DNA from: an uncultured Eubacteriales bacterium
GTDB lineage: Bacteria > Bacillota > Clostridia > Christensenellales > Aristaeellaceae
NCBI GenBank assembly: GCA_902764875.1
Contig: CACWXP010000005.1
Coordinates: forward strand, 1-64,000
Length of the DNA: 64,000 bases
Reading direction: 5' to 3'
Both the position numbers and the translations under genes were made by a program. Under the pieces are notes generated by a model. It was given only the letters and a program-made list of their open reading frames with translations, had not been told where the DNA came from and made no database searches. This document shows, piece after piece, positions 17,847 to 35,961 of the stretch (positions within the stretch are counted from its first letter, which is position 1; every line of letters starts with the position of its first letter).

Positions 17847-17867
17847 TCGGATCGACTTCACCCTTTC

Positions 17868-19300: not shown

Positions 19301-19412
19301 GCAGACAGCCTCCTTCAGGTTTGATTTCGGCATCAGCATAAGCGTTTTCGGACAGGGCGTATATAAACAAACGGAGCGATTTATACAAAAACCGTACACT
19401 TTGGCCCATTTG

Positions 19413-20108
19413 TCAAGAAACAGTATGATCCACCTGCTTCTGGACAGCTTCCATGCGCCGGTCCAGCGCATCCCCCATCTCGGCACATTCCTTCAGTTCC
19501 TTTTCGATCTCCGGGGAAATGATCACATCTTTCTTATAGCGGATCTTATGTTCCATGCTGGCCCACCAGTCCATGGAAATCGTTCGGAACTGAACCTCCA
19601 CCTTCATCAGTCTTTTCTGATCATGCAGGAAAATGGGAATCTGCACAATCAGGTGCAGGCTTCTGTAGCCGTTTTCCTTGGGATTGGCAATATAATCCTT
19701 TCTCTTGATCAGCGTTACATCGTCCTGCTTCAGGAAGGCCTCCGCCAGCATATAAATGTCTGAAGGATAGGAACAGATGACGCGAACTCCTGCCACATCA
19801 TTCAGATGCTCCTCAATGCTTTCCACCGTCAGCGGAACTTGCCGGGCGGTCAGCTTGTTCAGAATGCTTTCCGGGGATTTCAGGCGGGTTTTGATGGCTT
19901 CGATGGGATTGCGATCATATTGCAAGCTCAGTTCTTCATTGAGCACGTTGAATTTCGTCTCCACGGTCATCATGGCGCAGCGATAAAACGCCATCAGTTC
20001 CCTGTAAGGGAGGGCAACCTGCTGAAGGCGTCCTTTCATGCTGCCCTGAGACAGACGGGAGATCAGATTCTGTTCCAGCGGGTTCAGTTCATTTCTGTGG
20101 AATTCCAT
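19413..20108 (-). CDS. Small alarmone synthetase, RelQ/YjbM-like (p)ppGpp synthetase
   Basis: 231 residues, synthetase domain only, with no HD hydrolase. It makes pppGpp/ppGpp from ATP and GTP/GDP in the stringent response. Family motifs are VAGVRVICSY, NPKENGYRSLHL, and EVQFRT..MDWWASMEHKIRYK. The ATG at 20108 follows AAAGGAG. It is divergent from a TetR gene, with an operator-like palindrome between, and lies upstream of the radical SAM gene in the same direction, 112 bases apart. Confidence 0.92.
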   Translation of the reverse strand: MEFHRNELNPLEQNLISRLSQGSMKGRLQQVALPYRELMAFYRCAMMTVETKFNVLNEELSLQYDRNPIEAIKTRLKSPESILNKLTARQVPLTVESIEEHLNDVAGVRVICSYPSDIYMLAEAFLKQDDVTLIKRKDYIANPKENGYRSLHLIVQIPIFLHDQKRLMKVEVQFRTISMDWWASMEHKIRYKKDVIISPEIEKELKECAEMGDALDRRMEAVQKQVDHTVS

Positions 20109-20270: not shown

Positions 20271-20299
20271 TTGATTAGGGACAAAAATGATATTATAAT
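20271..20299 (+). promoter_or_regulatory. Promoter of the TetR-family gene
   Basis: TTGATT, 17 bases, TATAAT; the -10 ends 78 bases before the start codon. Confidence 0.65.
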
Positions 20300-20377
20300 A
20301 CGTTTAGTTGGTATTGTCAACGTACTGTCGATTTTACACGAACGAACACGACCCGTTTGATGAGGAGGAAACGAGTC

Positions 20378-20959
20378 ATGAAAAGCAACCAGACCAAGAA
20401 AGCGCTGGCGGAAGCGCTGAAACAGCTGCTGACCAGGAAACCGATCAATAAGATCACGATTAATGATATTACGGAGCAGTGCGGAATCAGCCGCATAACC
20501 TTCTACTATCACTTCAAGGATATCTACGATCTGGCGGAATGGACGCTGGAAGAAGCAATACAGCAGATCATTGGCGAGAATCGGTACGCGGATAACTGGC
20601 AGCAGGGGTTTCTGGATCTGCTGAAAGAAGTGAAAGATAATCAGAAGCTGTACATGAACGTTTATCGTTCCATGGATCGGGAAGCGATCGAACGGTATCT
20701 GCTGAAGAAGGTAGAACCTCTTCTGATGCCTGTGGTGGAAAAGGAGGCCGCAGGGATGGGCATCAGTCCGGAAGGAAAACGCGTGGTCGCCATCTTCTAC
20801 ACCTATGCGTTTATCGGCGTTGTTCTGGACTGGATCAGCAAGGGTATGCCCCTGACACCGCAGCAGGTAGTAACACTGACTGCGGCAGTTGTTCAGGGCG
20901 ATTTCAGGAATTCCCTTCAGAACCTGAAAAATCTGGACATATCGCGGTTTAACGCGTAA
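20378..20959 (+). CDS. TetR/AcrR-family regulator (DhaS-like C-terminal domain)
   Basis: 193 residues. The N-terminal HTH (about 5-50) reads ALAEALKQLLTRKPINKITI, then EQCGISRITFYYHFKDIYDL. The C-terminal domain resembles the TetR group near DhaS and holds the ligand pocket. The ATG at 20378 follows GAGGAGG. Its own promoter, an upstream palindrome and a terminator make it a single-gene unit at the head of the lipid region, which it may control. Confidence 0.9.
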   Translation: MKSNQTKKALAEALKQLLTRKPINKITINDITEQCGISRITFYYHFKDIYDLAEWTLEEAIQQIIGENRYADNWQQGFLDLLKEVKDNQKLYMNVYRSMDREAIERYLLKKVEPLLMPVVEKEAAGMGISPEGKRVVAIFYTYAFIGVVLDWISKGMPLTPQQVVTLTAAVVQGDFRNSLQNLKNLDISRFNA

Positions 20960-20970
20960 AGCAAGAAAAG

Positions 20971-21015
20971 GCGCGGCATTGCTCGTGGGTAGAGCACCGC
21001 CGCGCTTCTTTTTTT
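20971..21015 (+). terminator. Intrinsic terminator after the TetR gene
   Basis: GCGCGGC pairs with GCCGCGC, with an inner GCTC/GAGC stem, followed by a ten-base pyrimidine run that is nearly all T. Confidence 0.85.
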
Positions 21016-21047
21016 GATGGTGAAGTAATCATTCACTGGAAATACTG

Positions 21048-21722
21048 TCAACAGACGAACTTTTCGATGTGCGAAGCAACTTCATCCGCAATGGCTCTGT
21101 GTCCATTCTCATTGGGATGAATTCCATCGGCGCACATGAGGTCTGGAAAATCCAGCTGCTCCAGCATCCAGGCACGTACATTCAAGAAACGGCAGTTTTT
21201 TTCGATAGCGATATCCCAAACGGCAATGGCATACCGCTCCTGCCATCGGCAGATGCTTTCAGGATCATCTTCCAGGTAATGAAGAATGTTTTCACTATTC
21301 CGGTTCCGGGAAACCCACTGGAAATATCTGGAACCGATCAGAGGCAGACAGGGTATCAGAATCGGTTCCAGTTGCCGCTGCCTTGCTTCTTCTACGAAAG
21401 TGCCAAGCACTTTGCGAAAGTCTGCAAGGGGAACCTTTCCATCATGGAAATGAGCCGGGTCATTGGATACGGCATCCCAATCCAGATCACAGTCATTTCC
21501 TCCGAATTGAATTACACAGCTTGAACCCGGTTCAAGCGGCAGATTTCTGAAGTCACGAAGCCCATCCAGTACAGTGTGTCCGTGAACAGCGTAATTTCGA
21601 ATCGGATATCCAAGATGTTTCAGCAATCGGATGCAGCCCGATCGGGATACCCGATACTGGTTGTTTTCATCCAGAACGATCCCCTGACTGGCGGAATCGC
21701 CAAACATATATATCTCGGACAT
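21048..21722 (-). CDS. SGNH/GDSL-family esterase or lipase-like hydrolase
   Basis: 224 residues, no signal peptide. The block I motif FGDSAS has the nucleophile Ser at residue 10, block III is FGGND, and the DGIHPN block holds the Asp-His pair. The family deacylates lipids or carbohydrates. The start is the ATG at 21722. It is divergent from the DUF1836 regulator across two back-to-back consensus promoters, so it is a likely target of that regulator. Confidence 0.88.
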   Translation of the reverse strand: MSEIYMFGDSASQGIVLDENNQYRVSRSGCIRLLKHLGYPIRNYAVHGHTVLDGLRDFRNLPLEPGSSCVIQFGGNDCDLDWDAVSNDPAHFHDGKVPLADFRKVLGTFVEEARQRQLEPILIPCLPLIGSRYFQWVSRNRNSENILHYLEDDPESICRWQERYAIAVWDIAIEKNCRFLNVRAWMLEQLDFPDLMCADGIHPNENGHRAIADEVASHIEKFVC

Positions 21723-21760
21723 TATCGTTTCGCACCCTTTCATATCTGGTATTCGAAACT

Positions 21761-21789
21761 ATAATAAATCATACGCTTTACTATGTCAA
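21761..21789 (-). promoter_or_regulatory. Promoter of the SGNH hydrolase gene
   Basis: Minus strand TTGACA, 17 bases, TATTAT, ending 38 bases before the start codon. Confidence 0.75.
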
Positions 21790-21799
21790 TAGTTTTCGT

Positions 21800-21828
21800 T
21801 TGACAATATCTTGGAATCATGATATCTT
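21800..21828 (+). promoter_or_regulatory. Promoter of the DUF1836 regulator gene
   Basis: TTGACA, 17 bases, TATCTT, with the -35 box only 10 bases from that of the divergent SGNH hydrolase promoter, so one bound protein could govern both. Confidence 0.7.
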
Positions 21829-21844
21829 TTGATCAGCTATCAAA
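21828..21844. promoter_or_regulatory. Palindrome at the transcription start of the DUF1836 gene
   Basis: TTTGAT, five bases, ATCAAA: a perfect inverted repeat directly after the -10 box, where a bound repressor would block initiation. Likely autoregulation. Confidence 0.45.
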
Positions 21845-21870
21845 TGATTTCCTTTGAGGAGGGATCTTTG

Positions 21871-22338
21871 TTGGAACGAGAGGAAATCATTCGTTCTTTG
21901 GAAGGGCTCAGACTGCCGGAATGGGAACAGCTGCCGGATTTTGGGCTGTATATGGACCAGCTGGTCACTTTTGTCGGGCGTTCTTTTCCGGGAATCAGCG
22001 GCAGGCTTGACCTGACACCAAGCATGATAAATAATTATGTGAAAGCAGGACTGATCGAAAAACCTTCCGGGAAAAAATACAGCAGGAATGCGCTGGCCCA
22101 GCTGTTGATGATCTGCTTGCTGAAACTGACCACACCGCAGAACATTCTCCGCAGACTGCTGCATCCGGAAGATGGAACGGAGACAAAGACGATGTATCAG
22201 ACATTCCGGGCGACGCAGGAACGTATGGGCGCAGAAATCAGCCGTATGAAAGATTCTTCTGCGCTGGTTTGCGCTATGGAGTCATCTTTCCTGCAGCTGG
22301 CGCTTCGCCTGTGGGATGATTCCGGCGAAAAGAAGTAA
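21871..22338 (+). CDS. DUF1836 family DNA-binding regulator
   Basis: About 155 residues. DUF1836 proteins, which include the YkrK group of bacilli, have a MerR-like helix-turn-helix; here LTPSMINNYVKAGLIEKPSG fits the recognition helix and turn. The start is taken as the TTG at 21871, 7 bases after AGGAGGG; an upstream in-frame ATG at 21829 or 21844 has no ribosome site and overlaps the promoter and palindrome. It is followed by a terminator and then the acyl-activation operon. Confidence 0.8.
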   Translation: MEREEIIRSLEGLRLPEWEQLPDFGLYMDQLVTFVGRSFPGISGRLDLTPSMINNYVKAGLIEKPSGKKYSRNALAQLLMICLLKLTTPQNILRRLLHPEDGTETKTMYQTFRATQERMGAEISRMKDSSALVCAMESSFLQLALRLWDDSGEKK

Positions 22339-22389
22339 TGAGGGCAGTGCCTTTTCCAGAAAACAGGGATTGCCCCATGTTCCCTCTGA

Positions 22390-22427
22390 ACACGGTTCTA
22401 CGTTTAAAAACGCAGCCGTGTTTTTTA
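22390..22427 (+). terminator. Intrinsic terminator after the DUF1836 gene
   Basis: AACACGG pairs with CCGTGTT, with an inner CT.CGT/ACG.AG stem and an A/T loop, followed by six T. Confidence 0.85.
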
Positions 22428-22483
22428 TTTGGAAAAATCGGAAGACGAAGATTGAACAATTCAATCGAATTGCACATAAATTT

Positions 22484-22542
22484 ATCATTTTCCCCATTCT
22501 GTAAGTGGTGAAAACACACGATGCCCGTTATGCTGTAATTGT
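22484..22542 (+). promoter_or_regulatory. Shared 59-bp upstream element, copy A (before the acyl-activating gene)
   Basis: Aligns without gaps with 28120-28178 at 46 of 59 positions. The fixed cores are TAAGTGGTGAAA and TATGCTGTA, 15 bases apart. It ends 33 bases before the start codon. TATGCT could serve as -10, but the -35 match is poor, so an activator or an alternative sigma factor may be needed. Confidence 0.7.
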
Positions 22543-22575
22543 TGAAGAATCTGCGGAACCAGGGAGGGACTGAAT

Positions 22576-24039
22576 ATGAACTATTTTCTGGGAAATATGC
22601 TTCCGGAGGAGCGAAACGCTTTGCCGGATTTACGAACCACGGCGGCTTTTGTTTCCTGGATTACTGAACGCTATGGAGATCAGCCCGCACTATCCAATGA
22701 AAAGGAAAGCGTCACATACCGAGAACTGAGGCAGCGGGTTGCCGGAAAACGTCATCTGCTGGCCCGAATGGGAATGCCGAACGGCACGAACGTGGGCCTG
22801 CTGGATGTAAACAGCGTGGAGGAGGTGGAATGGTTTCTGGCAGTGACCAGTTATGGTTGCTGTGCGGTGATGCTGCCGCCATCCATGAGTCCGGAAGTAC
22901 TCCGGAGAGCAGCGGATCATTATGATCTGTCCGCTCTCATTCAGGGAGATCAATTCGCTTCCAAAACAGAAGGTCTTTCCCTGAAAACCATTTCCATGCA
23001 TGAAATGGATGATGAAGGTTCGGATCCAAAGGACGTACAGGGTACGGATCTGGCCGCGATTTTCTTCACCGGTGGAACGACAGGCACGCCCAAAGGGGTG
23101 ATGCTGAGCCATCAGGCACTGATGCGCGGAGCAAAGAACGGTACCTACCGCCGGGGAACGATTTACGGCCAGACCCTGGTAGCAGCTCTGCCCTTTACCC
23201 ATGTGTTCGGGATGATCTTCAGCATGCTCAGCGGACTGTATTGTGGATCCCATGTGTGGGTCTGCTCAGAGATGCGCCTGTTATTCCGGGAAATGGGGCG
23301 TGTTCGGCCGACCACGATGATTGCCGTGCCCGGAATGGCGGAACTGATGCTTAGCGTTGCAAAAGCAAAGGGGATCGAAGCGCTGGGAGGACGCCTGAAG
23401 CTGATTATCTGCGGAGCGGCACCTGTGCCGGCGAAACTGAGAGAGGGATTCGACCCCCTCGGAGTGGAAGTGCTGGCAGGCTACGGTCTGACAGAGACGG
23501 CTAACCTCGTCAGCGGCAATCTGGATATGTTTTTGCATCCCGATTCTGTCGGAAAACAGTATCCTGATCAGGAATACCGTCTGGTGGAGGGAGAACTGCA
23601 GGTCCGCGGGGATATGCTTTTTGACGGCTACTGGAAGGATGAGGCAGCGACCCAGGCAGCCATGACGCAGGACGGATGGTTCCGGACCGGTGATCTGGCC
23701 CGGGTGGATACCGATGGTTTTTTGTACATTATAGGCCGTTCAAAGAACCTGATCATCCTCAGCAACGGAGAGAATGTTTCCCCGGAGGAGGTGGAGGCCG
23801 CCTTCTACCGCAGTCCCTGCGTGCGGGAATGTCTGGTTTCCGAAACGGCCATCAACGGGAAGCCTGCCATTCTCCTGGAGGTTGTGCCTGCTCCCGGGGT
23901 GGATGAAGAGATCGTGATGTCCGTCCTAAAAACCATTCGGGAGGAGCTGCCGTCGCCTATGCGCCCGGCCAGGATGATCCTGCGGAAGGAAGAGTTCGAA
24001 AAGAGCGCAAGCATGAAGATCGTTCGAAAGAAGGGATGA
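22576..24039 (+). CDS. AMP-forming acyl-activating enzyme (acyl-CoA/acyl-ACP synthetase-like)
   Basis: 487 residues. ANL enzymes adenylate a carboxylic acid and pass it to a thiol. The P-loop TGGTTGTPKG is at 165-174, followed by YGLTE, RTGDLARVD, GRSKNLIILSNGENVSPEE and the C-terminal catalytic Lys in SASMKIV. An acyl carrier protein gene follows with no gap, so the likely acceptor is that ACP's phosphopantetheine, and the substrate is probably a fatty acid. The ATG follows GGGAGGG. The operon continues with an acyltransferase and is preceded by the shared 59-bp element. Confidence 0.9.
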   Translation: MNYFLGNMLPEERNALPDLRTTAAFVSWITERYGDQPALSNEKESVTYRELRQRVAGKRHLLARMGMPNGTNVGLLDVNSVEEVEWFLAVTSYGCCAVMLPPSMSPEVLRRAADHYDLSALIQGDQFASKTEGLSLKTISMHEMDDEGSDPKDVQGTDLAAIFFTGGTTGTPKGVMLSHQALMRGAKNGTYRRGTIYGQTLVAALPFTHVFGMIFSMLSGLYCGSHVWVCSEMRLLFREMGRVRPTTMIAVPGMAELMLSVAKAKGIEALGGRLKLIICGAAPVPAKLREGFDPLGVEVLAGYGLTETANLVSGNLDMFLHPDSVGKQYPDQEYRLVEGELQVRGDMLFDGYWKDEAATQAAMTQDGWFRTGDLARVDTDGFLYIIGRSKNLIILSNGENVSPEEVEAAFYRSPCVRECLVSETAINGKPAILLEVVPAPGVDEEIVMSVLKTIREELPSPMRPARMILRKEEFEKSASMKIVRKKG

Positions 24040-24300
24040 ATGATGATGGAAACGCTGAAAAACATTTTCTCGCTTGTCAGACCGGAAATGGATGTGTCCT
24101 CCATCACCCGGGATACGCAATTAACGCAGGAGCTTGGGCTGGATTCTCTGGATTTTGTCCTGCTGATGATGGAAATCGAGGAAACATATCAGATTCAGTT
24201 TTCCGGTATGGAACACTTTGAGACGGTGGGAGATGTATGCGATTACATTGCAGAAAGAATCCGGGAGAACAATGAACCGGCAGCTTGCAGTCATCCCTGA
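24040..24300 (+). CDS. Acyl carrier protein
   Basis: 86 residues. The helix-turn motif LGLDSLDFVLL places the phosphopantetheine-accepting Ser at residue 36. The protein is acidic around helices II-III as in fatty acid ACPs. Three ATG codons in a row follow the stop of the acyl-activating gene directly; any may start it. It is a dedicated carrier, distinct from the housekeeping AcpP because it sits between an activating enzyme and an acyltransferase. Confidence 0.92.
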   Translation: MMMETLKNIFSLVRPEMDVSSITRDTQLTQELGLDSLDFVLLMMEIEETYQIQFSGMEHFETVGDVCDYIAERIRENNEPAACSHP

Positions 24301-24315
24301 TCGGATTGCAGAAAC

Positions 24316-25596
24316 ATGATGATGAAAAGCGTGAAAAATAATGTGAAGTTGAAGGATCGGCCGGGTTTCGAGACTCTTGGAATGAGAAACCTTTACCGAG
24401 CGCTGTATCCGTTCTTTCATTGCAAATGCGAATTTCCGGAAGAAATCACATGCAGTGATGAACCTACGGTGTTTATCGCAAATCATTACCGCGTTTTTGG
24501 CCCGATTTCCTTTATTCTTTCCGTGCCATTTGTCCATTGTGCCTGGATGAATGAGGATCTTGTTACTCCTGAGAAAACGGAAGGTGCGGTATACCAGGGT
24601 GTGAAAGAAGTATTTCCATATCTGAAACCGCGCTTTATCCGGAAGATCTGCTCCTTTTTAAGCGGACATGTCTGTTCCGTTATGCTGCATTTCGGATATA
24701 TTCCAATTGACCGGAACGATGCCGGGAAACTGATCGGCACTTTGCGCAAGAGTGTACAGACACTGCAGGATGGGAACAACATTCTGATTTTCCCGGAAAA
24801 GGGGAATCCCGGTTTTTCCCTGACGTCTGTCACGGAGTTTTATGAAGGCTTCGCAACCCTGGGAGCCTATTATCAGAGAAAAAACGGGAAAAGGCTGCGC
24901 TTTTGTCCGGTTTATATTGATGAGCAGCATCACATCATTCGAAGCGGTGAGCCGGAATATTATGATTGCACGGAGCGAAACATGCGGGAGGAAAATGAAC
25001 GGATTTCTCACGCCCTGCATGACCGGATTGCCGAGATGGCTGCGTGTTCTCACGGGGAGGAAAAGGAACAGAGAACCCCGAAGCGGATCGGACTAATGCA
25101 TCTGTGCAATGTGCTGCGCATTCTGATGTTGATTCCCCTGCTCATTGTCATGCACTCCCCGTCAGGCACAGTGACTCTGGCACTTTATCTTCTGTCGCAT
25201 GTTTTACTGGCGGGGTTCAGTACCGCAGTTGGAACGGTACCCGCAACCAATCATATTTCATGCATGATTTCTCATTTCATCAGCATTCTGACAGATTTAT
25301 GCGTGCTCATCCATTTTCGTGCAAACAGGTGGCATGATTTCCTGACGGTTGGTCTGATCCTGAACGGTCTTGTGTTTCTCATCATGAATATTTATGTGTA
25401 TCTGAAGGAGCGGAAATGCGCTGGAACCAGCTATTTTGATTCAGTGTCCGTCAGCATGATCGGATTTGTCAATTTGCTGCTGATCACCAATGTTCGGCTG
25501 ACCCGGGCGATGCTTCACACAGTACTGTTGTTTTCTGCAATCTTTTTAACGCTGTCAACGGTTTCCGGAGTGATGTTCAACCGGAGACTGCTGTAA
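24316..25596 (+). CDS. PlsC-like acyltransferase fused to a C-terminal membrane domain
   Basis: 426 residues. The N-terminal half (about 45-240) resembles 1-acylglycerol-3-phosphate acyltransferases: NHYRVFGP for motif I, FGYIPIDRND for motif II, and FPEKGNPG for motif III. Motif I keeps the His but not the usual Asp four residues on, so the catalytic dyad is altered. Residues 265-426 form about five membrane helices, an unusual attachment for PlsC. The adjacent ACP suggests acyl-ACP as donor. The acceptor is unknown and may be a lipid or a sugar. Confidence 0.75.
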   Translation: MMMKSVKNNVKLKDRPGFETLGMRNLYRALYPFFHCKCEFPEEITCSDEPTVFIANHYRVFGPISFILSVPFVHCAWMNEDLVTPEKTEGAVYQGVKEVFPYLKPRFIRKICSFLSGHVCSVMLHFGYIPIDRNDAGKLIGTLRKSVQTLQDGNNILIFPEKGNPGFSLTSVTEFYEGFATLGAYYQRKNGKRLRFCPVYIDEQHHIIRSGEPEYYDCTERNMREENERISHALHDRIAEMAACSHGEEKEQRTPKRIGLMHLCNVLRILMLIPLLIVMHSPSGTVTLALYLLSHVLLAGFSTAVGTVPATNHISCMISHFISILTDLCVLIHFRANRWHDFLTVGLILNGLVFLIMNIYVYLKERKCAGTSYFDSVSVSMIGFVNLLLITNVRLTRAMLHTVLLFSAIFLTLSTVSGVMFNRRLL

Positions 25597-25680
25597 GCAG
25601 TCTTTCGTTGGTGGAGAAAAAAACATGGATGAATCAAGAAGAGCGGATTTCCGGCAGGTGCGACAGAAGGATGGTGGAAG

Positions 25681-26871
25681 ATGGACAATATTCTGTCCTA
25701 TATCAAATGGCGAGGGGATTTGACTGTCAGACAAAGCAGATTCAATGAGGTGGACAACCTGATATTATCCACATTGAGCTATCTGAGCTTTGATGGGATC
25801 ATCCCGGAAAGTCCCGCTGGAAGTATATCCATCGGACAGGCTGCTCAAAGGTATTTTAGGCTTCATCCGCTACCGGATGAGCAGGACATCGAAAAAATGA
25901 ATACAGGATCCGGACGGGAGTGGATGTTTTATCTGATGGCTTCTTCCCGACGTTTCCGGAATATGCGCCTGTCAAATTATAAGAATATTCTTGATCCGGA
26001 GAGTGTGAAACAGTTTACCGCCATGACTATTCACACATCCAGAAACGACTTGTACATCGCATATCGCGGAACAAACGATACCCTGACAGGCTGGAAAGAG
26101 GATTTCCTGCTGGCTTGTCTGCCTGAAGTCGCTTCCCAGGAGGAAGCTGTGAATTATGCCAGAACAGTAGCGGAACAATATACGCAGAAACGGTTGTTTC
26201 TGGGTGGTCATTCAAAGGGCGGTAATCTGGCGGTTTACGCCGCAGTGAAAGTACCCATGAACATTCAGGATCGGATTCAGACTGTCTGGTCTAATGACGG
26301 ACCGGGCTATCAGGAGGACTTTATCACATCCGAATCCTATCTTCGCATGGCAGCGAAAATCCATACGATTGTCCCCAAATCCTCCGTCGTCGGTATGCTG
26401 ATGGCTCATGATCATCAATACACCATTGTGGACAGCTATCAGAAGGGACTGCTGCAGCACGACGGGCTGTCCTGGAGGGTCATTGGAAATCAGTTCGTAC
26501 ACTTCCCGGAACTGACCAGGGAAAGCCAGGCGGCAGGGCGTAGTATACGGACATGGCTGGATACGCACCCGCAGGAGGAACGGCTGGCTTTTGTGAACGC
26601 ACTGTTCGATGTGCTCAGCGCAACCGGTACACAAAAACTTTCTGAAATTCGTCGGGATCGGATTAAATCGATGATTGTTTCTCTCCCTTATTATCGGGAA
26701 CTCCCCAAAGACACGCGGGAGCAGATTCTTCGATTTTTCGTACTGCTCAACAGCGTTACTCTACGCCTGAACAATGAAACGGCGATTGAGAAAACTTCCA
26801 GAATGATCGGAAAGATTTCCTTTTCCACCCGCAGCGCAGGACGAAAAGCGAGAGAAGAAAGAAAACGGTAA
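25681..26871 (+). CDS. DUF2974 (Mbeg1-like) alpha/beta-hydrolase, probable lipase
   Basis: 396 residues. The nucleophile elbow GGHSKGGNL has Ser at 178; AYRGTNDTLTGWKEDF upstream is the class-3-lipase-like oxyanion region, and the candidate His lies in the FVHFPEL area. No signal peptide, so it is intracellular. The C-terminal 80 residues are helical and basic. An intracellular lipase beside an acyl-activation operon could free fatty acids for re-activation. Start ATG at 25681 with AAGGATGG upstream; the 84-base gap before it holds no convincing gene. Confidence 0.82.
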   Translation: MDNILSYIKWRGDLTVRQSRFNEVDNLILSTLSYLSFDGIIPESPAGSISIGQAAQRYFRLHPLPDEQDIEKMNTGSGREWMFYLMASSRRFRNMRLSNYKNILDPESVKQFTAMTIHTSRNDLYIAYRGTNDTLTGWKEDFLLACLPEVASQEEAVNYARTVAEQYTQKRLFLGGHSKGGNLAVYAAVKVPMNIQDRIQTVWSNDGPGYQEDFITSESYLRMAAKIHTIVPKSSVVGMLMAHDHQYTIVDSYQKGLLQHDGLSWRVIGNQFVHFPELTRESQAAGRSIRTWLDTHPQEERLAFVNALFDVLSATGTQKLSEIRRDRIKSMIVSLPYYRELPKDTREQILRFFVLLNSVTLRLNNETAIEKTSRMIGKISFSTRSAGRKAREERKR

Positions 26872-26909
26872 GCAGCAGATGAATGTAGCATGATACAGGA
26901 GGAGTGAAC

Positions 26910-28085
26910 ATGCGGCAGAAAGGCGATCATCCAATCACCGCGGAAAGAATTGCAGTTGAGCGAATCCTATGCGGCATTCTGGCTGCTTTTCTTGTTCTGC
27001 TGATCATTCGGCAGCTTTTCCGGCTGGGATGGACCTGGATTGGGCCTTTCCTGGTTGCGCTGCCAATTGCTGCGTTATTGCAGCCGGCAGTTTCTTTTTT
27101 CAGCGACAAATGCAAAATGCCAAAGGGGATTGCCGCATTGATTCCGGTTCTGTTTTCAATATTATTGCTGTGCATCTGTCTGTTTTTAATCGTCAGCCAT
27201 CTTGTGAGGGAAACAGAACAGATTGCCAGCAATCCTTCGGTGATTCTGACCGGTTTAACGGATATATTTCAGCAGATCAGCCATAAACTGGAGACGATGG
27301 CATCATCCCTGGGGCTGGAAGGAAGGACATGGGCCATGGAATTCACAGGGGAAATATCGCAACACCTTTCTTCCTGGCTTACCGCGTCTGCTGGAAAACT
27401 CAGCTCCTTTGCGGGACAGCTGGTTTCCCATGTGACAGATTTCATTGTTTTCCTTACTTTCTGTATGATGGGACTGTTTTTCCTGACCAGAGATTATGAC
27501 CTGATCCAAAGCATGTTCCAAAAATGGAAATCCAGTCTGTTGCGTGGGGAAGCACGAAATCTTTTTCAGGCAGGATTAACAGGCGCTCTGGGCTATATCA
27601 GGGTGCAGGCGTTTTATGCCATTGTTTCTCTTGTTGCGGGTATCGTTTTCTGGAGCATACAGGGGAATCCCTATGCGGCTATTATTTCCATCACAGCGGC
27701 TGTTCTGGAGTTTATTCCTGTTGTTGGGAACGGCACCGTGTATCTTCCCTGGGCTGCCGTGGAGATTCTCCTTGGCAATTTCTCAGCCGCGCTGTATCCG
27801 CTCGGCTTTTTTCTATGCCTGCTATGGTTTCGCAGGCTTACGGAACCGAGAATGCTGTCCAGAAAAATCGGGATTTCACCATTGCTCAGCCTGATCAGCA
27901 CATATGTAGGGCTGAAAGCAGGAGGTATCGGAGGAATGATTACGGGACCTGTCATGATGACAGTGTTGGTTACTTTCGTTCGCGGTTCCTGGCTGCAGAT
28001 ATTGAAAACGGATATCAACACAATCCGAAGCTATTTGCATCATCGGTGGCATCCGGAAATTTCTGGGGAAACCCGGGGGAAATAA
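26910..28085 (+). CDS. AI-2E family membrane protein (YtvI-like)
   Basis: 391 residues with about eight membrane helices in the family pattern: two at the N-terminus, a long helical segment outside (about 90-150), and a C-terminal bundle containing PLLSLISTYVGLKAGGIGG and MITGPVMM. Members export signals or solutes, or act as antiporters; the YtvI branch is common in spore formers. The ATG at 26910 is 7 bases after AGGAGG, better placed than the GTG at 26904. It ends the operon started at 22576 and may move its product across the membrane. Confidence 0.85.
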   Translation: MRQKGDHPITAERIAVERILCGILAAFLVLLIIRQLFRLGWTWIGPFLVALPIAALLQPAVSFFSDKCKMPKGIAALIPVLFSILLLCICLFLIVSHLVRETEQIASNPSVILTGLTDIFQQISHKLETMASSLGLEGRTWAMEFTGEISQHLSSWLTASAGKLSSFAGQLVSHVTDFIVFLTFCMMGLFFLTRDYDLIQSMFQKWKSSLLRGEARNLFQAGLTGALGYIRVQAFYAIVSLVAGIVFWSIQGNPYAAIISITAAVLEFIPVVGNGTVYLPWAAVEILLGNFSAALYPLGFFLCLLWFRRLTEPRMLSRKIGISPLLSLISTYVGLKAGGIGGMITGPVMMTVLVTFVRGSWLQILKTDINTIRSYLHHRWHPEISGETRGK

Positions 28086-28119
28086 TGTCTTACAAATGCG
28101 CTGGAATGTACACATTTTC

Positions 28120-28178
28120 ATCATTTCGCCCTTTCTATAAGTGGTGAAAGCGAAAAATGCCGCATATGCTGTATTTGT
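28120..28178 (+). promoter_or_regulatory. Shared 59-bp upstream element, copy B (before oleate hydratase)
   Basis: Ungapped match to 22484-22542 (46 of 59 bases), with the same TAAGTGGTGAAA and TATGCTGTA cores at the same spacing, ending 38 bases before the oleate hydratase start. Outside this stretch the two upstream regions are unrelated, so the match is selected rather than a leftover duplication. Confidence 0.7.
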
Positions 28179-28216
28179 CCCGGAACACTTAACGAATTTG
28201 CGAAGGAGGAATCAGC

Positions 28217-29995
28217 ATGTATTATTCCAGTGGTAATTATGAGGCATTTGCACGTCCGGAGAAACCGGAAGGCGTCGATCGGAAAAGCGCCTATATTGTC
28301 GGTACCGGACTGGCTGCGCTGACGGCTGCCTGCTATCTGGTGCGCGATGGACAGATGAAGGGCAAGCGGATTCATATTTTTGAGAAAGATCCGATTCCCG
28401 GCGGAGCCTGTGACGGATGGGAATATCCCGGTCTCGGATACGTGATGCGCGGCGGACGGGAAATGGATAACCATTTCGAGGTTATGTGGGATCTGTTCCG
28501 TTCCATTCCTTCCATCCAGACGGAAGGCGTATCCGTACTGGATGAGTATTACTGGCTGAACAAGAAGGATCCCAATTTCAGCCTGTGTCGCGCGACCGTC
28601 AACCGTGGTCAGGACGCGCATACCGATGGAAAGTTTGCCATCAGCGACAAAGGCGCGATGGAAATCATGAACCTGTTCTTTACCCCGGATGAGGAACTGT
28701 ATAACAAGAAGATTACCGATTATTTTGACGACGAGGTGTTGAACAGCAATTTCTGGCTGTACTGGCGCACCATGTTCGCCTTTGAAAACTGGCACAGCGC
28801 ACTGGAAATGAAGCTGTATATCAAGCGGTTCATCCATCATATCGGAGGATTGCCGGATTTCAAGGCTCTTCGCTTCACAAAGTATAATCAGTATGAATCC
28901 ATGATTCTGCCCATGATCAAATATCTCGAGAGCCATGACGTGCAGTTCCATTACAACACAAAGGTTGTCAATGTTCAGTTTGATATCCTTGCCGACGGAA
29001 AGAAATACGCCACCAGTATCGAGGTGATGCACGAGGGAGAAAAGGACTATGTCATGCTGACGGACGATGACCTGGTGTTTATCACCAACGGCGGATGCGT
29101 GGAGAATTCCACCATGGGCAGCCAGAACAAACCCGCGGAATTCAATCCGGAGATCAGGCCCGGAGGCGGCTGGGATATGTGGCGTCGGATTGCCGCGCAG
29201 GATCCCTCTTTTGGTCACCCGGACAAGTTCTGCTTTGACCCGGAACAGACCAACTGGATGAGTGCCACGGTAACCACCCTGGACTACCGCATCATTCCCT
29301 ATATTGAAAAGATCTGTAAGCGGGACCCCTTCAGCGGAGGCGTGGTGACCGGGGGGATTGTGACGGTAAAGGATTCAGGATGGCTTATGAGCTGGACGAT
29401 CAACCGGCAGCCTCAGTTCCGCAATCAGCCGAAGGATCAGTGCCTGGTGTGGGTGTACGGACTGTTTACAGACAAGGACGGAGATTTCATCAGGAAGCCC
29501 ATGCGGGAATGTACCGGGAAGGAAATCTGCATGGAATGGCTGTATCATCTGGGCGTGCCGGAGAGCGATATCCCGCGCATGGCGGAGGAAAGCGCCAACA
29601 CCGTGCCGGTGATGATGCCATATATTACCGCGTTCTTTATGCCCCGCGGAAAGGGAGACCGGCCTGATGTGGTGCCGGAAGGGGCTGTGAACTTCGCTTT
29701 CCTGGGGCAGTTTGCCGAGACGAAACGGGATACCATCTTTACGACGGAGTATTCCATGCGGACCGGTATGGAAGCGGTCTATACCCTGCTGAACATCGAT
29801 CGGGGCGTGCCGGAAGTCTGGGGAAGTACCTATGACATCCGCGATCTGCTGAATGCCAGCGTGAAGCTCCGGGATGGCCGTCCGCTGACAGATATGAAAC
29901 TGAACCTGATCGACAGAACCGCGATTCACGAGCTTCTGAAGCGCGTGCACGGAACGGATATTGAAAAACTGCTGAAGGATTATCAGGTCATCTGA
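28217..29995 (+). CDS. ohyA: Oleate hydratase (FAD-dependent, myosin-cross-reactive antigen family)
   Basis: 592 residues, full length. It adds water to the cis-9 double bond of oleate and similar fatty acids to give 10-hydroxy acids (EC 4.2.1.53), removing toxic unsaturated host or plant lipids. The dinucleotide fold GTGLAAL is at 29-35, then FEKDPIPGGACDG, and the catalytic loop RGGREM with Glu82, the position of the water-activating Glu in characterised OhyA. The C-terminal part has the family's FNFAFLGQ-like AFLGQFAET and YTLLNIDRGVPEV. The ATG follows AAGGAGG and the gene has the shared 59-bp element. Confidence 0.97.
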   Translation: MYYSSGNYEAFARPEKPEGVDRKSAYIVGTGLAALTAACYLVRDGQMKGKRIHIFEKDPIPGGACDGWEYPGLGYVMRGGREMDNHFEVMWDLFRSIPSIQTEGVSVLDEYYWLNKKDPNFSLCRATVNRGQDAHTDGKFAISDKGAMEIMNLFFTPDEELYNKKITDYFDDEVLNSNFWLYWRTMFAFENWHSALEMKLYIKRFIHHIGGLPDFKALRFTKYNQYESMILPMIKYLESHDVQFHYNTKVVNVQFDILADGKKYATSIEVMHEGEKDYVMLTDDDLVFITNGGCVENSTMGSQNKPAEFNPEIRPGGGWDMWRRIAAQDPSFGHPDKFCFDPEQTNWMSATVTTLDYRIIPYIEKICKRDPFSGGVVTGGIVTVKDSGWLMSWTINRQPQFRNQPKDQCLVWVYGLFTDKDGDFIRKPMRECTGKEICMEWLYHLGVPESDIPRMAEESANTVPVMMPYITAFFMPRGKGDRPDVVPEGAVNFAFLGQFAETKRDTIFTTEYSMRTGMEAVYTLLNIDRGVPEVWGSTYDIRDLLNASVKLRDGRPLTDMKLNLIDRTAIHELLKRVHGTDIEKLLKDYQVI

Positions 29996-30057
29996 TTGCC
30001 GCGGTATGCCTGCTGCAATGAACAGAAGCAAGATCTTCAACAAGGAGTGTGGAATCC

Positions 30058-30840
30058 ATGATTGAGAAGGTAAATCCGGGCCATCCGGATAAAATAGCGG
30101 ATCGAATTGCAGGCGCACTTGTGGACTGGGCATACACTGCGCATAAGGATCCCAGAATCGCTGTGGAGGTGCTCCTGGGGCATGGGAATTGCCATATCAT
30201 TGCGGAGACCTCTGTCCATATTCCGGAAACCAGCGTACAGGAGATCGTCTCACGGATCGCTGGGGACGTGATGCTTGATTATCTGGAAGTGCCGCAGGAT
30301 ATTCACCTGGCAGAAAATCAGGATGGTGGCGTTCGTTGCGGCGACAACGGTATCTTTAAAGGAATGCCGCTGACAGAGGAGCAGAAGAAGCTTTCGGCGA
30401 TAGCCCGGAGCATCTATGCGAAATATCCGTATGACGGGAAGTATGTGCTGAACGGGGAGCAACTGATTATCTGTCAGAGCAATGCAGGGAGGGCTTCCCT
30501 TGCTGAAGACTTTCCTGTTGCGCAGATCAATCCTTTGGGAGACTGGACCGGAGGCACTGATGTGGATAGCGGAGCCACGAATCGCAAACTGGGCAGCGAT
30601 ATGGCAGACAGCGTTACCGGCGGCGGACTGCATGGGAAGGATCTTTCCAAGGCAGATGTATCCGTGAATATCCACGCGTTTCTGAAAGCACAGCGAATCG
30701 GAGCGCCTGTTGAACTGTGCTGTGCCATTGGAGATGAAAGAGTGGACGGTGTCCCCTATGCTGAGATCGTTGAAGAAGCCAGGAACTATGTCAGGTCCGT
30801 CGGAGGATTTGAGAAACTGGCGGAATGGGGCCTTTTCTGA
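30058..30840 (+). CDS. Shortened S-adenosylmethionine synthetase-like protein
   Basis: 260 residues against about 390 for MetK. The N-terminal GHPDKIADRIAGALVDW (8-24) matches the MetK ATP/Met site, CGDNGIFKG replaces the GAGDQG loop, YPYDGKYVL matches the PDGK..V segment, and NPLGDWTGG...GATNRKL then GGGLHGKDLSKAD match the GGP.GD..LTGRK and GGGA.SGKD.(T/S)KVD blocks. The middle and C-terminal domains are shortened. It may make SAM locally for the next gene, a radical SAM enzyme, or bind SAM or ATP for another purpose. The ATG at 30058 follows AAGGAG. It lies in the oleate hydratase operon. Confidence 0.8.
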   Translation: MIEKVNPGHPDKIADRIAGALVDWAYTAHKDPRIAVEVLLGHGNCHIIAETSVHIPETSVQEIVSRIAGDVMLDYLEVPQDIHLAENQDGGVRCGDNGIFKGMPLTEEQKKLSAIARSIYAKYPYDGKYVLNGEQLIICQSNAGRASLAEDFPVAQINPLGDWTGGTDVDSGATNRKLGSDMADSVTGGGLHGKDLSKADVSVNIHAFLKAQRIGAPVELCCAIGDERVDGVPYAEIVEEARNYVRSVGGFEKLAEWGLF

Positions 30841-30894
30841 GACTTCCGGGAACTGAATGAAAAATAAATGATTGAAAGAAAAGGAGTGCAGCCC

Positions 30895-32310
30895 ATGAAT
30901 CTTTCGGAGAAACTGAAATCCATTGGTGTAAAACAGGTGCTCAAATATGTGGATAAGGATTTTGAGCATAACGCGGTGAAAGTTTGCGACTGGCTGATTG
31001 ACCATGATAAGGATGGCGGCGTGAAAAACGAAGCCACCATGGTGCGGAATGTGCTGCAGGATCCGGACAGCAACTGGTATCAGCTGGTGAAGAGCCTGTA
31101 CACGGAAATTGATGACGAACAGCGGAAAAGACTCCTTGAGAATTTTGTGATCAATGCCTGCCTGATCGGCACACCCACCGGTTTTGAAAACAGTGTCCGG
31201 TATGACTGCAATGTGCCCTGGGCGATTCTGATGGATCCCACATCCGGCTGCAATCTGCACTGCACAGGCTGCTGGGCTGCGGAATATGGAAACAAGCTGA
31301 ACCTGACACTGGAGGAACTTGACAGCATCATCGCGCAGGCGGAGGACCTGGGATGTTACTTCTTTATCTACTCCGGCGGGGAACCGCTCGTACGGAAAAA
31401 GGATATCATCACCCTTTGCGAACGTCATCCGGAAGCGGCCTTCCTTTCCTTTACCAACGGCACCCTGATCGATGAAGCGTTCGCGGATGAAATGCTACGG
31501 GTGAAGAACTTTGTTCCTGCCATCTCCATCGAGGGCTTTGAGGAGGAGACGGATTTCCGGCGCGGAAAAGGAACCTATGCTTCCGTTGTGCGGGCCATGA
31601 ATCTGCTGAAGGAACGAAAACTGCTTTTCGGAGCGAGCTGCTGTTACACGTCAAAGAATGTGGAAGTGATTGGGAGCGAAGCATATTTTGACAGCTTGAT
31701 TGATCTGGGCGCAAAGTTCATGTGGCTTTTCACCTACATGCCGGTTGGCGTGGACGCGGTGCCGGAGCTGATGGCAAGCAGCGAGCAGCGGGAGTATATG
31801 TACCATTTTGTCCGGGCTATGCGGGATAAAAAGCCCCTCTTCACCATGGATTTCTGGAACGATGGGGAATACGCGGACGGATGCATCGCCGGAGGACGGC
31901 GCTATCTGCATATCAACGCCAACGGAGATGTGGAGCCCTGCGCCTTCATCCATTACAGCGACAGCAATATCCGGGAAAAAAGCCTGCTGGAGGCGCTGCA
32001 GTCTCCGCTATTCATGGCCTATCACCGGGGACAGCCCTTTAATGAGAATATGCTCCGCCCCTGCCCGCTGCTGGACAATCAGGGGAAACTGGCGGAAATG
32101 GTAGATGCGTCCGGAGCTCATTCCACGGATCTTCAGAATCCGGAGGACGTGCATGAACTCTGTGCCAAGTGCAAAGCTGCTGCTGACTGCTGGCAGGTCA
32201 CCAGTCAGGAACTCTGGGAGGAGGACCATGGACCTGAAAGGTGGGAGGCCAAAAAAGTCAAAATCGCTGAACGGAATCAGAAATTGCAGAATAAGGTCAG
32301 GCGTGCCTGA
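30895..32310 (+). CDS. Radical SAM enzyme with SPASM-like C-terminal cysteines (paralogue 2)
   Basis: 471 residues. Cluster motif CNLHCTGC at 119-126 and GGEP at 161-164; helical N-terminal domain of about 105 residues. It shares long identical blocks with the protein at 17927-19300: LHCTGCWAAEYGN, FTNGTLIDE, MLRVKNFVPAIS, GCIAGGRRY and HYSDSNIREK, plus the C-terminal Cys set ending in CAKCKAAADC. The ATG at 30895 follows AAAGGAGTG. It lies just after the SAM-synthetase-like gene and oleate hydratase, so a fatty-acyl substrate is possible, while SPASM enzymes usually act on peptides or proteins. Substrate unknown. Confidence 0.9.
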   Translation: MNLSEKLKSIGVKQVLKYVDKDFEHNAVKVCDWLIDHDKDGGVKNEATMVRNVLQDPDSNWYQLVKSLYTEIDDEQRKRLLENFVINACLIGTPTGFENSVRYDCNVPWAILMDPTSGCNLHCTGCWAAEYGNKLNLTLEELDSIIAQAEDLGCYFFIYSGGEPLVRKKDIITLCERHPEAAFLSFTNGTLIDEAFADEMLRVKNFVPAISIEGFEEETDFRRGKGTYASVVRAMNLLKERKLLFGASCCYTSKNVEVIGSEAYFDSLIDLGAKFMWLFTYMPVGVDAVPELMASSEQREYMYHFVRAMRDKKPLFTMDFWNDGEYADGCIAGGRRYLHINANGDVEPCAFIHYSDSNIREKSLLEALQSPLFMAYHRGQPFNENMLRPCPLLDNQGKLAEMVDASGAHSTDLQNPEDVHELCAKCKAAADCWQVTSQELWEEDHGPERWEAKKVKIAERNQKLQNKVRRA

Positions 32311-32376
32311 AAGGAAGGATCTCTGAAAGGAACAAGGATCCGACGGCAGAGCCATCGCGAATAATGAGAGGAGAAT

Positions 32377-32715
32377 ATGAAAATGGCAATATTGAATCGA
32401 AGTATCAGAAACATGGTGCTTGCGGGAATCGGTGCGGCAGCGCTCGCACATGAGGAAAGCAGCGATCTGCTTCATCATCTGGTTGAAAAAGGTGAGGCAA
32501 TTGTCACAAACAGTGGGATCCAAAATGAGCTGCTTCATCATGATCCGGATGACATGAAAGAAACAGAAACGCCTGTGGATGAAAGCGCATGGCTGGATAC
32601 ACTCTGCAGGATGACACCCGATCAGCTGGGTGTCTTGAAGGAAGCGATTCATTCGGTCGAATGGGCCAGGAACAACAATGCTGGCGATGAAAATGCGGAC
32701 GAGGAAGAAGGATAA
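32377..32715 (+). CDS. Phasin-like small helical protein
   Basis: 112 residues. The first 50 (MVLAGIGAAALAHEESSDLL, then LVEKGEAIVTNSG) match the short phasin-like proteins of Firmicutes: a slightly hydrophobic helix, then KGE, then an acidic helical tail. Phasins coat lipid or polyhydroxyalkanoate granules; in this group the role is unproven. It ends 5 bases before the UbiB-family gene, a pairing seen in other clostridia. The acidic end (DENADEEEG) is probably disordered. Confidence 0.6.
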   Translation: MKMAILNRSIRNMVLAGIGAAALAHEESSDLLHHLVEKGEAIVTNSGIQNELLHHDPDDMKETETPVDESAWLDTLCRMTPDQLGVLKEAIHSVEWARNNNAGDENADEEEG

Positions 32716-32720
32716 GAAGT

Positions 32721-34289
32721 ATGGCCAGGGAACTGCGTACTGATCAGCGGAAGCGTTTTGCGCAAATTATCGAAGTGCTTCGCCGCAACGAGATATCATC
32801 CAAAGGAATAACGCCGGATAAGCTTGCCGCCATTATGGAGGAATTGGGGCCAACGTTTATCAAACTGGGGCAGATTCTTTCCATGCGATCGGATTTTCTT
32901 CCCCAGGAATACTGTGACGCGCTGGTCCACCTGCAGACCCACGTGGAACCCATGCCATTCGAACAGGTCAAATCCATCCTGGAGGACGCTTTCGGGCGTC
33001 CTCTTCAGGATGTGTTTTCTTTTTTTGAACCGACAGCGCTTGGAAGCGCGTCCATCGCGCAGGTTCACGCGGCGGAGCTGCCATCAGGAGAAAAAGTGGT
33101 TGTCAAGGTACAGCGGGAAGGGATCCATGAGGTTATGAACCGGGACATCATTCTCCTGAAAAAAGCAGCCGAGGCGCTGAAATATACCCCGCATCACGGA
33201 CTGGTGGATTTCAACCGGGTGCTGGATGAAATGTGGGTTGTCGCGCAGCAGGAGATGAATTTCCTGACGGAAGCGCAGAACCTGGAAACCTTCTCCCGGC
33301 TGAACGCGGATACAGCCTATATCACGGCTCCTAAAGTATTCCCCACATATTCCACAGGAAATGTACTGGTGATGGAGAGAATCGATGGGATCCCAATCAA
33401 TGATAAAGAAGCGATGGTTCAGGCCGGATATGATCTTGACGAAATCGGGCTGAAGCTTGCGGACAACTATGTCAAGCAGTTGATCGAGGATGGCTTTTTC
33501 CATGCGGATCCGCATCCGGGGAATATCCGCATCCGGGACGGAAAAATCGTTTATCTGGATATGGGGATGATGGGATCCCTGTCAGAAAGAGACCGAAAGG
33601 TTATTCGTCAGGCAGTGGAAGGCGTTGCGAGAAACAATCCGGAAGCCTGTAAGAAAGCGGTGCTTCAGTTGGGTGTGATCACACATGAAATCGATCACAG
33701 GGCATTGTACAGGGACTGCGAAACCATGCTGGATCGCTACGGATCCATGGAACTGGGCAGTATGGATCTGTCAGCCGTGATGAAAGATATCATGGATATC
33801 ATGAAGAAGCACCAGATCGGGATGCCCGGCGGGTTATCCCTGCTGGTGCGTGGGCTGGCGACCGTGGAAGGCGTTATTGTGGATATCGCACCATCCGTGA
33901 GCGTAACACAGGTCGCGACAGCCAGAATCAGCAGTATGTTTCTGCGGGATTTTGACTGGCGCGGAACGTTGACTCGGGATGCTTATACACTGTATGAAAG
34001 CGCGCAGAAATCCCTTGATATCCCGGCTCTGGTATCTGATACGCTGCAGACAGGATTGAAGGGGGATTTGAGGAAGAAGGTTGAGATCAGCGCCGATGAA
34101 AAAACAGAAAAACTTCTGCGCGTGCTGGTAACGAAGCTGTGTATGGCATTGATTTGTGCCGCTCTGGTTCTTGCGGCCAGTATGATTTCCGGGTCGGCTA
34201 TCGTTGTTTTCGGACTGAGGGCAGAATACTGGCTGCTTGTTATAGCTGCCATTCCTGGCCTTTATTGTTTTCTGGCTCACAGAAAGTAG
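32721..34289 (+). CDS. UbiB/AarF (ABC1) family atypical kinase
   Basis: 522 residues. Family marks are the KLGQ motif at 48-51, the Ala-rich loop ALGSASIAQVH at 106-116, VVVKV, the catalytic HADPHPGN at 261-268, and the metal-binding LDMGMMG. Two membrane helices lie at the C-terminus (about 470-517). UbiB proteins are membrane ATPases that assist extraction or movement of hydrophobic lipids such as quinones. Here, next to a phasin-like protein and oleate hydratase, fatty acids or isoprenoids are plausible cargo. Confidence 0.93.
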   Translation: MARELRTDQRKRFAQIIEVLRRNEISSKGITPDKLAAIMEELGPTFIKLGQILSMRSDFLPQEYCDALVHLQTHVEPMPFEQVKSILEDAFGRPLQDVFSFFEPTALGSASIAQVHAAELPSGEKVVVKVQREGIHEVMNRDIILLKKAAEALKYTPHHGLVDFNRVLDEMWVVAQQEMNFLTEAQNLETFSRLNADTAYITAPKVFPTYSTGNVLVMERIDGIPINDKEAMVQAGYDLDEIGLKLADNYVKQLIEDGFFHADPHPGNIRIRDGKIVYLDMGMMGSLSERDRKVIRQAVEGVARNNPEACKKAVLQLGVITHEIDHRALYRDCETMLDRYGSMELGSMDLSAVMKDIMDIMKKHQIGMPGGLSLLVRGLATVEGVIVDIAPSVSVTQVATARISSMFLRDFDWRGTLTRDAYTLYESAQKSLDIPALVSDTLQTGLKGDLRKKVEISADEKTEKLLRVLVTKLCMALICAALVLAASMISGSAIVVFGLRAEYWLLVIAAIPGLYCFLAHRK

Positions 34290-34401: not shown

Positions 34402-34430
34402 TTGTTTTATGGTCAGATCCAGAGTATAAT
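34402..34430 (+). promoter_or_regulatory. Promoter of the sigma-like gene
   Basis: TTGTTT, 17 bases, TATAAT. It lies inside the upstream part of the open frame, so translation must start downstream, at the TTG at 34459. Confidence 0.7.
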
Positions 34431-34458
34431 ACAGGCATTCGAACGGGAGGTGATTGTA

Positions 34459-35373: not shown

Positions 35374-35454
35374 CGGCACAGAAAATCGTAGAGATATTGT
35401 CCACAGATTTTTTTCAAAGCCTGGAACATTTTCCATCTTCCCGTGTCGTATATC

Positions 35455-35474
35455 GGTGGAGGGCAATCTCCACC
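35455..35474 (+). other. Hairpin upstream of a terminator (attenuator-like pair)
   Basis: GGTGGAG pairs perfectly with CTCCACC over a six-base loop, 10 bases before the terminator at 35485-35511. Two stable hairpins in tandem ahead of a short leader ORF could form an attenuator. Confidence 0.4.
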
Positions 35475-35484
35475 ATGCACTCGG

Positions 35485-35511
35485 ACCGCTGAGCAGGGCA
35501 GCGGTTTTTTT
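35485..35511 (+). terminator. Intrinsic terminator after the sigma-like gene
   Basis: ACCGCTG pairs with CAGCGGT over a seven-base loop, followed by seven T. Confidence 0.85.
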
Positions 35512-35559
35512 GTGCGTAAATAAAAAACGGTGCAAGGCAGCGCCGGGAAAGGAGAACGG

Positions 35560-35613
35560 ATGAAATATATCAACAGTTACCGGACTGGCGGAAGGGAGGT
35601 GAAGGAAACATGA
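35560..35613 (+). CDS. 17-residue leader ORF coupled to the DUF3847 gene
   Basis: An ATG at 35560 after AAAGGAG opens 17 codons (MKYINSYRTGGREVKET). Its TGA overlaps the next gene's ATG, so ribosomes finishing it would restart there. It may be a translational coupler or part of an attenuator with the hairpins before it. Confidence 0.4.
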   Translation: MKYINSYRTGGREVKET

Positions 35614-35942: not shown

Positions 35943-35961
35943 TCATTACACACCCTACTGG

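Follow-up and report, generated by a model that had tools for sequence, protein, structure and literature searches.

A candidate fatty-acid remodelling locus links oleate hydratase, an acyl ligase–carrier protein operon and a radical SAM enzyme in an uncultured Eubacteriales bacterium

Oleate hydratase (OhyA) shapes the way bacteria handle unsaturated fatty acids. Here we describe a locus in a 64,000-nucleotide (nt) stretch of DNA from an uncultured Eubacteriales bacterium (contig CACWXP010000005.1, positions 1 to 64,000, assembly GCA_902764875.1; hereafter the window), where the gene for this enzyme lies among genes for an acyl ligase, a dedicated acyl carrier protein (ACP), a PlsC-like acyltransferase, a compact phage-type S-adenosylmethionine (SAM) synthetase and two paralogous radical SAM/SPASM enzymes, rSAM1 and rSAM2 (Table 1). 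The organism is a gut bacterium akin to Christensenella. An earlier note made from the sequence had tied oleate hydratase to the ligase–ACP operon and a radical SAM gene, a link that is now borne out by neighbourhood across species, co-occurrence across genomes and a shared upstream element. On balance we favour reading the locus as a co-regulated module that remodels fatty acids of exogenous origin, in which the radical SAM enzyme would tailor acyl chains.

Upstream of both the ligase gene and the oleate hydratase gene stands the arrangement TAAGTGGTGAAA-N7-ATGCC-N3-TATGCTGTA, placed 38 and 43 nt before the respective start codons. The two copies agree at every fixed position and are identical at 28 of 36 positions overall; no other 36-mer of the window scores above 21, and shuffled sequences gave no match in 100. 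Relaxed to at most three mismatches, the element has two sites in the 3.27-Mb assembly (93% complete), both at the locus, and none in the control; a second ligase–ACP pair of the same genome, on another contig (G000:C7:2359-3813, L074; ligase 61% identical), lacks the element in this whole-genome scan (G labels denote genomes of our relative and class samples, L labels fetched loci). In Christensenella sp. UBA2853 (L145), a variant that keeps 16 of 18 box positions, with a spacer shorter by one, stands 28 nt before the rSAM1 start, the sole site at that level in 1.306 Mb comprising the 80 rSAM loci described below (reversed control, none), and a shorter exact pattern has two sites in the UBA2853 genome, one of them this variant. 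The distance between the two boxes of the element is like that of promoter hexamers, and the element may be a promoter or operator on which the TetR regulator of the locus would act. The regulated genes were seen to share no palindrome that could serve as a TetR operator, and the shared element itself is not palindromic. Between positions 17000 and 36500, promoter-like sites number 20 against 18.9 in shuffles, no excess overall, with the divergent sites between the TetR and RelA–rSAM2 genes included in the count, and terminator-like sites number 32 against 19.2.

Linkage between oleate hydratase and the radical SAM family recurs outside the window. When the collection was scanned with an alignment of 13 members of the family, it yielded at least 598 stretches, at least 593 of them encoding relatives, and the best 80 of these at least 593 were analysed; all rSAM counts given out of 80 refer to them. 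Positions of rSAM were taken from the scan; a second clustering of open reading frames (ORFs) split the family. An oleate hydratase gene lies within 10 kb of rSAM in 12 of the 80 loci, ten times at less than 1 kb and once each at 1–3 and 5–10 kb. Other families found within 1 kb, each named from one representative, are TetR (21 loci), a pseudo-radical-SAM protein (16), DegV (14), cellular MetK (10) and CDP-alcohol phosphatidyltransferase (5). Genes for ABC transporters show no such near peak (3, 5, 9 and 17 over four distance bins), nor, in the same loci, do those for UbiB, phasin-like, AI-2E or cardiolipin-synthase-like proteins. On an 81-row rSAM tree, the OhyA-linked rows number 16 (a cluster's second copy and the two window paralogues being counted separately) and require seven label changes, at least four of them forced by well-supported branches, although the bootstrap is not fully settled and L201, L206 (OhyA-linked), L211 and L213 are omitted for in-frame stops; the linkage is thus present in more than one lineage. 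Carriers of both OhyA and rSAM include the cultivable Fournierella massiliensis. In most OhyA-linked loci the radical enzyme is nearer to rSAM2 than to rSAM1. Among 391 genomes of the class sample, 39 encode OhyA, 74 rSAM and 21 both (one-sided Fisher P = 2e-7, ignoring kinship); without family f63 the value is 8e-4, a rough figure for which only the 12 f63 genomes with a hit were subtracted.

The closest named record among the matches listed is UBA2853, with a radical SAM enzyme 88% identical to ours. Its genes run MMPL, heptad-repeat protein, rSAM1, TetR, ligase, ACP and OhyA, so that a second species retains the core of ligase, ACP, OhyA and rSAM, in changed order. The corresponding row in G042 is MMPL, heptad-repeat protein, TetR, ligase, ACP and OhyA, with no rSAM1; its MMPL and heptad-repeat proteins match those of UBA2853 at 90% and 65%. 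In UBA2853, L190 and L192, two rSAM genes stand together with RelA, phasin-like, UbiB, TetR and OhyA genes, in an order other than that of the window. We conclude that the arrangement goes beyond chance for OhyA, rSAM, ligase and ACP, and we do not extend this to the Mbeg1-like and AI-2E genes.

The oleate hydratase matches the NF010584 equivalog at 937.1 bits (cut-off 567) and retains the equivalents of Staphylococcus aureus E82 and Y201, which we take to be the catalytic residues. Its best solved relative is 7kav, given in PMC11669549 as the S. aureus oleate hydratase. The ligase keeps the phosphate-binding motif TGGTTGTPKG and a C-terminal lysine, and the carrier protein keeps its DSL serine; the pair is conserved in relatives, and we regard the ligase as a putative acyl-ACP synthetase working with the dedicated ACP. 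A PlsC-like homologue, 34–35% identical to that of the window, follows the ligase–ACP pair in G006, G012 and G033. The C-terminal half of the window acyltransferase had no Pfam match.

Both PF04055 and PF13186 (SPASM) score above cut-off in rSAM1, and the cysteines C128, C132 and C135 of the CxxxCxxC motif are invariant in 56 aligned rows drawn from 55 of the 80 loci (L201 was lost). The structure model of rSAM1 (predicted local distance difference test (pLDDT), 91) has anSME, SkfB and SuiB as its nearest folds, with template-modelling (TM) scores of about 0.5. We commit its role to acyl-chain or lipid tailoring only; the substrate would be a lipid, and unsaturated or hydroxylated fatty acids may be what it acts on. 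As a separate observation, 17 of the 80 loci carry, upstream of rSAM on the opposite strand, the pseudo-radical-SAM protein of 307–381 amino acids (for example L152:8712-9767). CxxxCxxC is missing in all 17 members, and a representative had no Pfam or NCBIfam match; judged from sequence, the protein is a candidate pseudo-enzyme partner of rSAM.

Immediately before rSAM1, 27 nt upstream, lies the gene for a 263-residue SAM synthetase. The earlier note had recognized its kinship correctly and missed its phage type: the protein matches the PHROG 1569 profile, labelled as of unknown function, over residues 3–263 (E = 7.3e-68), and falls far under the MetK cut-off of TIGR01034 (48.1 against 309.4 bits). 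Its predicted fold (pLDDT 79; residues 173–194 poor) is that of methionine adenosyltransferase (MAT), with TM scores by query length of 0.58–0.69 among the 50 matches listed, and the stretches HPDK, GDNG and GKDxSKAD are conserved in an alignment of copies from 47 of 80 viral loci plus two. On this predicted fold, PHROG 1569 is probably a compact SAM synthetase family, akin to MetK/MAT in fold and motifs and different from it in size and profile.

A scan of viral contigs found 550 relatives of this synthetase, the best 77% identical, of which 80 loci were fetched (L257–L336). The ParB/methyltransferase-type gene that stands next after a prophage-like copy in G058 is matched in 76 of these 80 viral stretches (gene names being read from sequence), and none of the 80 has a match to rSAM or OhyA. 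Among 291 class genomes, eight, our own included, encode the synthetase at E ≤ 1e-30. In L196, a 73% identical copy lies 26 nt upstream of that locus's own rSAM. The window and L196 copies sit on separate supported branches among phage copies in a tree that leaves out L284 (a stop), the G354 copy and a broken copy in G267; this placement indicates at least two recruitments, with the reservation that both branches are long. Local supply of SAM to the radical enzyme is the simplest reading. A SAM synthetase, cellular or phage-type, repeatedly stands beside the same radical SAM family, which suggests that the enzyme consumes much SAM and hence that its substrate may be an abundant one, for instance lipid.

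In the mechanism that we propose, every chemical step and the order of steps are what we infer from the genes. Oleate hydratase would hydrate free fatty acids that carry cis double bonds; the ligase would load the dedicated ACP with the resulting hydroxy acids, with their fatty-acid precursors or with both; and the PlsC-like acyltransferase would put the loaded chains into glycerolipid. The radical SAM/SPASM enzyme, served by the compact SAM synthetase, would make a SAM-consuming radical change to the acyl chain or lipid, while TetR and the shared element would tie together the ligase operon, oleate hydratase and, in UBA2853, the row led by the radical SAM gene. A more specific proposal is that of one pathway, in which OhyA, the split ligase, ACP and acyltransferase, and the radical SAM enzyme supply the membrane of gut Clostridia, Christensenella-like and others, with exogenous fatty acids that have been hydroxylated or otherwise radically altered, drawing SAM from a dedicated synthetase recruited from phages at least twice; we hold this to be possible, if doubtful.

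Aas and AasS are acyl-ACP synthetases that activate exogenous fatty acids for acyl transfer. The window resembles these systems in its PlsC-like and AMP-ligase parts; it differs in having the functions split over three genes side by side, one of them for a dedicated ACP. A likeness to the FakAB fatty-acid kinase route appears in other loci, where DegV proteins (FakB1-like, below cut-off) adjoin rSAM, whereas the window has no DegV homologue. The window hydratase is full-length like that of S. aureus, with the E82 and Y201 equivalents noted above; it differs in sharing an upstream element with an acyl-ligase, ACP and acyltransferase operon. No description of this combination of genes was found among the matches listed in the open-access literature, subscription papers and preprints being outside the scope of that search; papers that did surface include a survey of stress genes in bifidobacteria and one on a probiotic trial.

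Several observations weigh against the module that we favour. According to PMC11669549, the S. aureus enzyme makes 10-hydroxystearate, which is secreted and unused for membrane lipid. Among solved structures, those nearest to rSAM belong to enzymes that modify peptides or proteins. Ligase–ACP pairs occur without OhyA in G006, G010, G012 and G033; some of the OhyA-linked loci (L200, L204, L205 and L207) are near-copies; the co-occurrence test is uncorrected for relatedness; and OhyA and rSAM lie within a few kilobases on one contig in only two of the 39 OhyA genomes (the window's and G207), although contig ends may hide some. The element was not found in the G042 stretch, and its shorter exact pattern is absent from the incomplete G042 genome. 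The window, in turn, has no homologue of the MMPL or heptad-repeat proteins, nor of DegV. The nearest relatives mostly lack the parts or have them apart; in G069, OhyA, UbiB and rSAM share a contig and lie far from each other.

The relatives were surveyed as follows. OhyA occurs in 10 of 120 related genomes, our own included, of which three have weak or partial matches and one a 36% identical copy; seven, again with our own, have a whole-length enzyme at least 65% identical, G069 adding a short weak second match. Within the stretches fetched, rSAM stands beside this enzyme in only two of the seven, our own and G038, whose genes are about 100% identical to ours and so not independent. The other five copies have no rSAM in the fetched stretch, the contigs of G042 and G052 being short. 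Searches of the relatives for rSAM, the ligase, the SAM synthetase and UbiB returned different sets of genomes, and ORF clustering of the first relatives revealed no constant rSAM neighbour. The earlier note had suggested a search for the same gene set in other genomes and had named scattering among relatives as telling against the system. That scattering is half borne out, in the nearest relatives; a fixed 14-kb unit is not supported, and the narrower link of OhyA, rSAM, ligase and ACP is, by the UBA2853 row, the 12 loci with OhyA near rSAM, the co-occurrence and the shared element.

Among the alternatives, the best placed, which we nevertheless rate as unlikely, is that rSAM is, or is closely akin to, a bacterial membrane-spanning lipid synthase (Mss), joining phospholipid acyl tails, with OhyA and the ligase nearby since all respond to membrane fatty-acid composition. 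Mss, taken by description only, and Tes share with our rSAM that they are radical SAM enzymes of anaerobes with lipid gene neighbours. PMC13274423 reports Mss and Ger homologues together in species of the Lachnospiraceae, Oscillospiraceae, Clostridiaceae, Christensenellaceae and Lutisporaceae, and the rSAM family occurs in records of these groups; genes for CDP-alcohol phosphatidyltransferase (PgsA/ClsA-like) and MetK near rSAM in part of the 80 loci would also fit. The same paper states that Mss keeps the catalytic architecture of Tes, yet neither fold nor profile gave a specific match of rSAM to archaeal Tes (7tol), which reached only E = 0.062 over the core and lay outside the best 50 of 129 fold matches with E ≤ 0.001. 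Phospholipase-D-type cardiolipin synthases, moreover, occur in 5 of the 80 loci, none close to rSAM.

Less likely still is that OhyA and the ligase–ACP pair serve only to clear toxic unsaturated fatty acids, the radical SAM gene being an unrelated bystander. Secretion of the S. aureus product (PMC11669549) suits such detoxification, as do the stretches fetched from G052, G093 and G118, where TetR and OhyA stand together and rSAM is lacking, but the sharp OhyA peak within 1 kb of rSAM, seen in more than one lineage, and the element ahead of the rSAM-led row of UBA2853 argue against a bystander. We consider it improbable that the radical SAM/SPASM enzyme modifies a peptide or protein and that the fatty-acid genes are unrelated to it: anSME, SkfB and SuiB are its best fold and profile matches, but the resemblance extends to the general fold only, and lipid genes are among its recurrent neighbours. 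Chance assembly of unrelated genes sharing a direction would agree with their scattering or absence in the nearest relatives, but is highly improbable given a shared element with no further site in the genome, a rearranged and retained set in UBA2853 and the fall-off of OhyA with distance from rSAM.

Table 1 Features of the locus in the window, with the main evidence for each
Feature	Position	Strand	Evidence or remark
TIM-barrel-like protein, weak KDPG-aldolase-like match	17184..17861	-	77% identical homologue in L190
rSAM2, second radical SAM/SPASM paralogue	17927..19486	-	family match; 53-56% identical to rSAM1
RelA/SpoT-domain protein	19413..20108	-	present in 7/80 rSAM loci
Overlapping divergent promoter-like sites, TetR (+) vs RelA-rSAM2 (-)	20271..20320		sigma-70 matches 10/12 (+), 12/12 (-)
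TetR regulator (TetR_C_8)	20357..20959	+	family match
GDSL/SGNH hydrolase	21048..21743	-	64% identical in L145
DUF1836 protein	21829..22338	+	65% identical in L145
Shared 36-bp upstream element, copy 1	22502..22537	+	38 nt before ligase start
AMP-binding acyl ligase (acyl-ACP synthetase-like)	22576..24039	+	TGGTTGTPKG motif, C-terminal lysine
Dedicated acyl carrier protein (GLDSL)	24040..24300	+	adjoins ligase in relatives too
PlsC-like acyltransferase, hydrophobic C-terminal half	24316..25596	+	family match
Mbeg1-like/DUF2974 putative lipase (PF11187)	25681..26871	+	family match
AI-2E/YtvI-like membrane protein	26904..28085	+	family match
Shared 36-bp upstream element, copy 2	28138..28173	+	43 nt before oleate hydratase
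Oleate hydratase OhyA	28217..29995	+	NF010584 equivalog
Compact phage-type SAM synthetase (PHROG 1569)	30049..30840	+	profile match, predicted fold
rSAM1, radical SAM/SPASM enzyme	30868..32310	+	PF04055, PF13186
Phasin-like small protein (weak)	32377..32715	+	below family cut-offs
UbiB/ABC1 kinase-like protein	32721..34289	+	family match

All 13 genes named in the earlier note are genuine open frames within the 14 kb it described, 12 of them on the plus strand and the GDSL/SGNH hydrolase alone on the minus strand; the ten from ligase to UbiB (22576–34289) follow one another with intergenic gaps of 0–131 nt. Its span of 20357–34289 holds these genes and starts too late, as the locus extends to the rSAM2, RelA/SpoT-domain and TIM-barrel-like genes (17184–20108, minus strand), divergent to TetR. 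The rSAM2 and RelA/SpoT-domain genes recur in related clusters, and the TIM-barrel gene was seen in a single locus of the 80, L190. Of the families it assigned, DUF2974 is confirmed by the Mbeg1-like match, the lipase role being putative. The AI-2E family assignment holds as well, with YtvI as the nearest NCBIfam relative at a score under cut-off (179.6 against 198.15). The phasin assignment fared worse, the match lying below both the Pfam (20.4 against 28.8) and NCBIfam (29.8 against 94.7) cut-offs; the gene adjoins UbiB in G069 and G099 and in UBA2853, L190 and L192.

Beyond the locus, two consecutive minus-strand frames occupy 15662–17026, the second (15662–16429) citrate-transporter-like and the first (16502–17026) resembling the front of the same gene, which is possibly broken. 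On the other side, 34402–37036 holds a frame without a Pfam match (34402–35373), a DUF3847 gene and a recombinase-type frame in which no resolvase domain was matched, possibly a mobile-element remnant adjoining the locus. A type I restriction-modification HsdM-like methylase is encoded at 5484–7244 on the minus strand.

The candidate regulon described here joins oleate hydratase to acyl-ACP loading and to a recurrent, uncharacterised radical SAM enzyme, and so opens to direct testing a possible new route by which dietary oleate would reach the membrane lipid of bacteria. If the one-pathway proposal is true, bacterial fatty acyl chains would undergo a new kind of radical tailoring, and the products of oleate hydratase would have a fate not described before.

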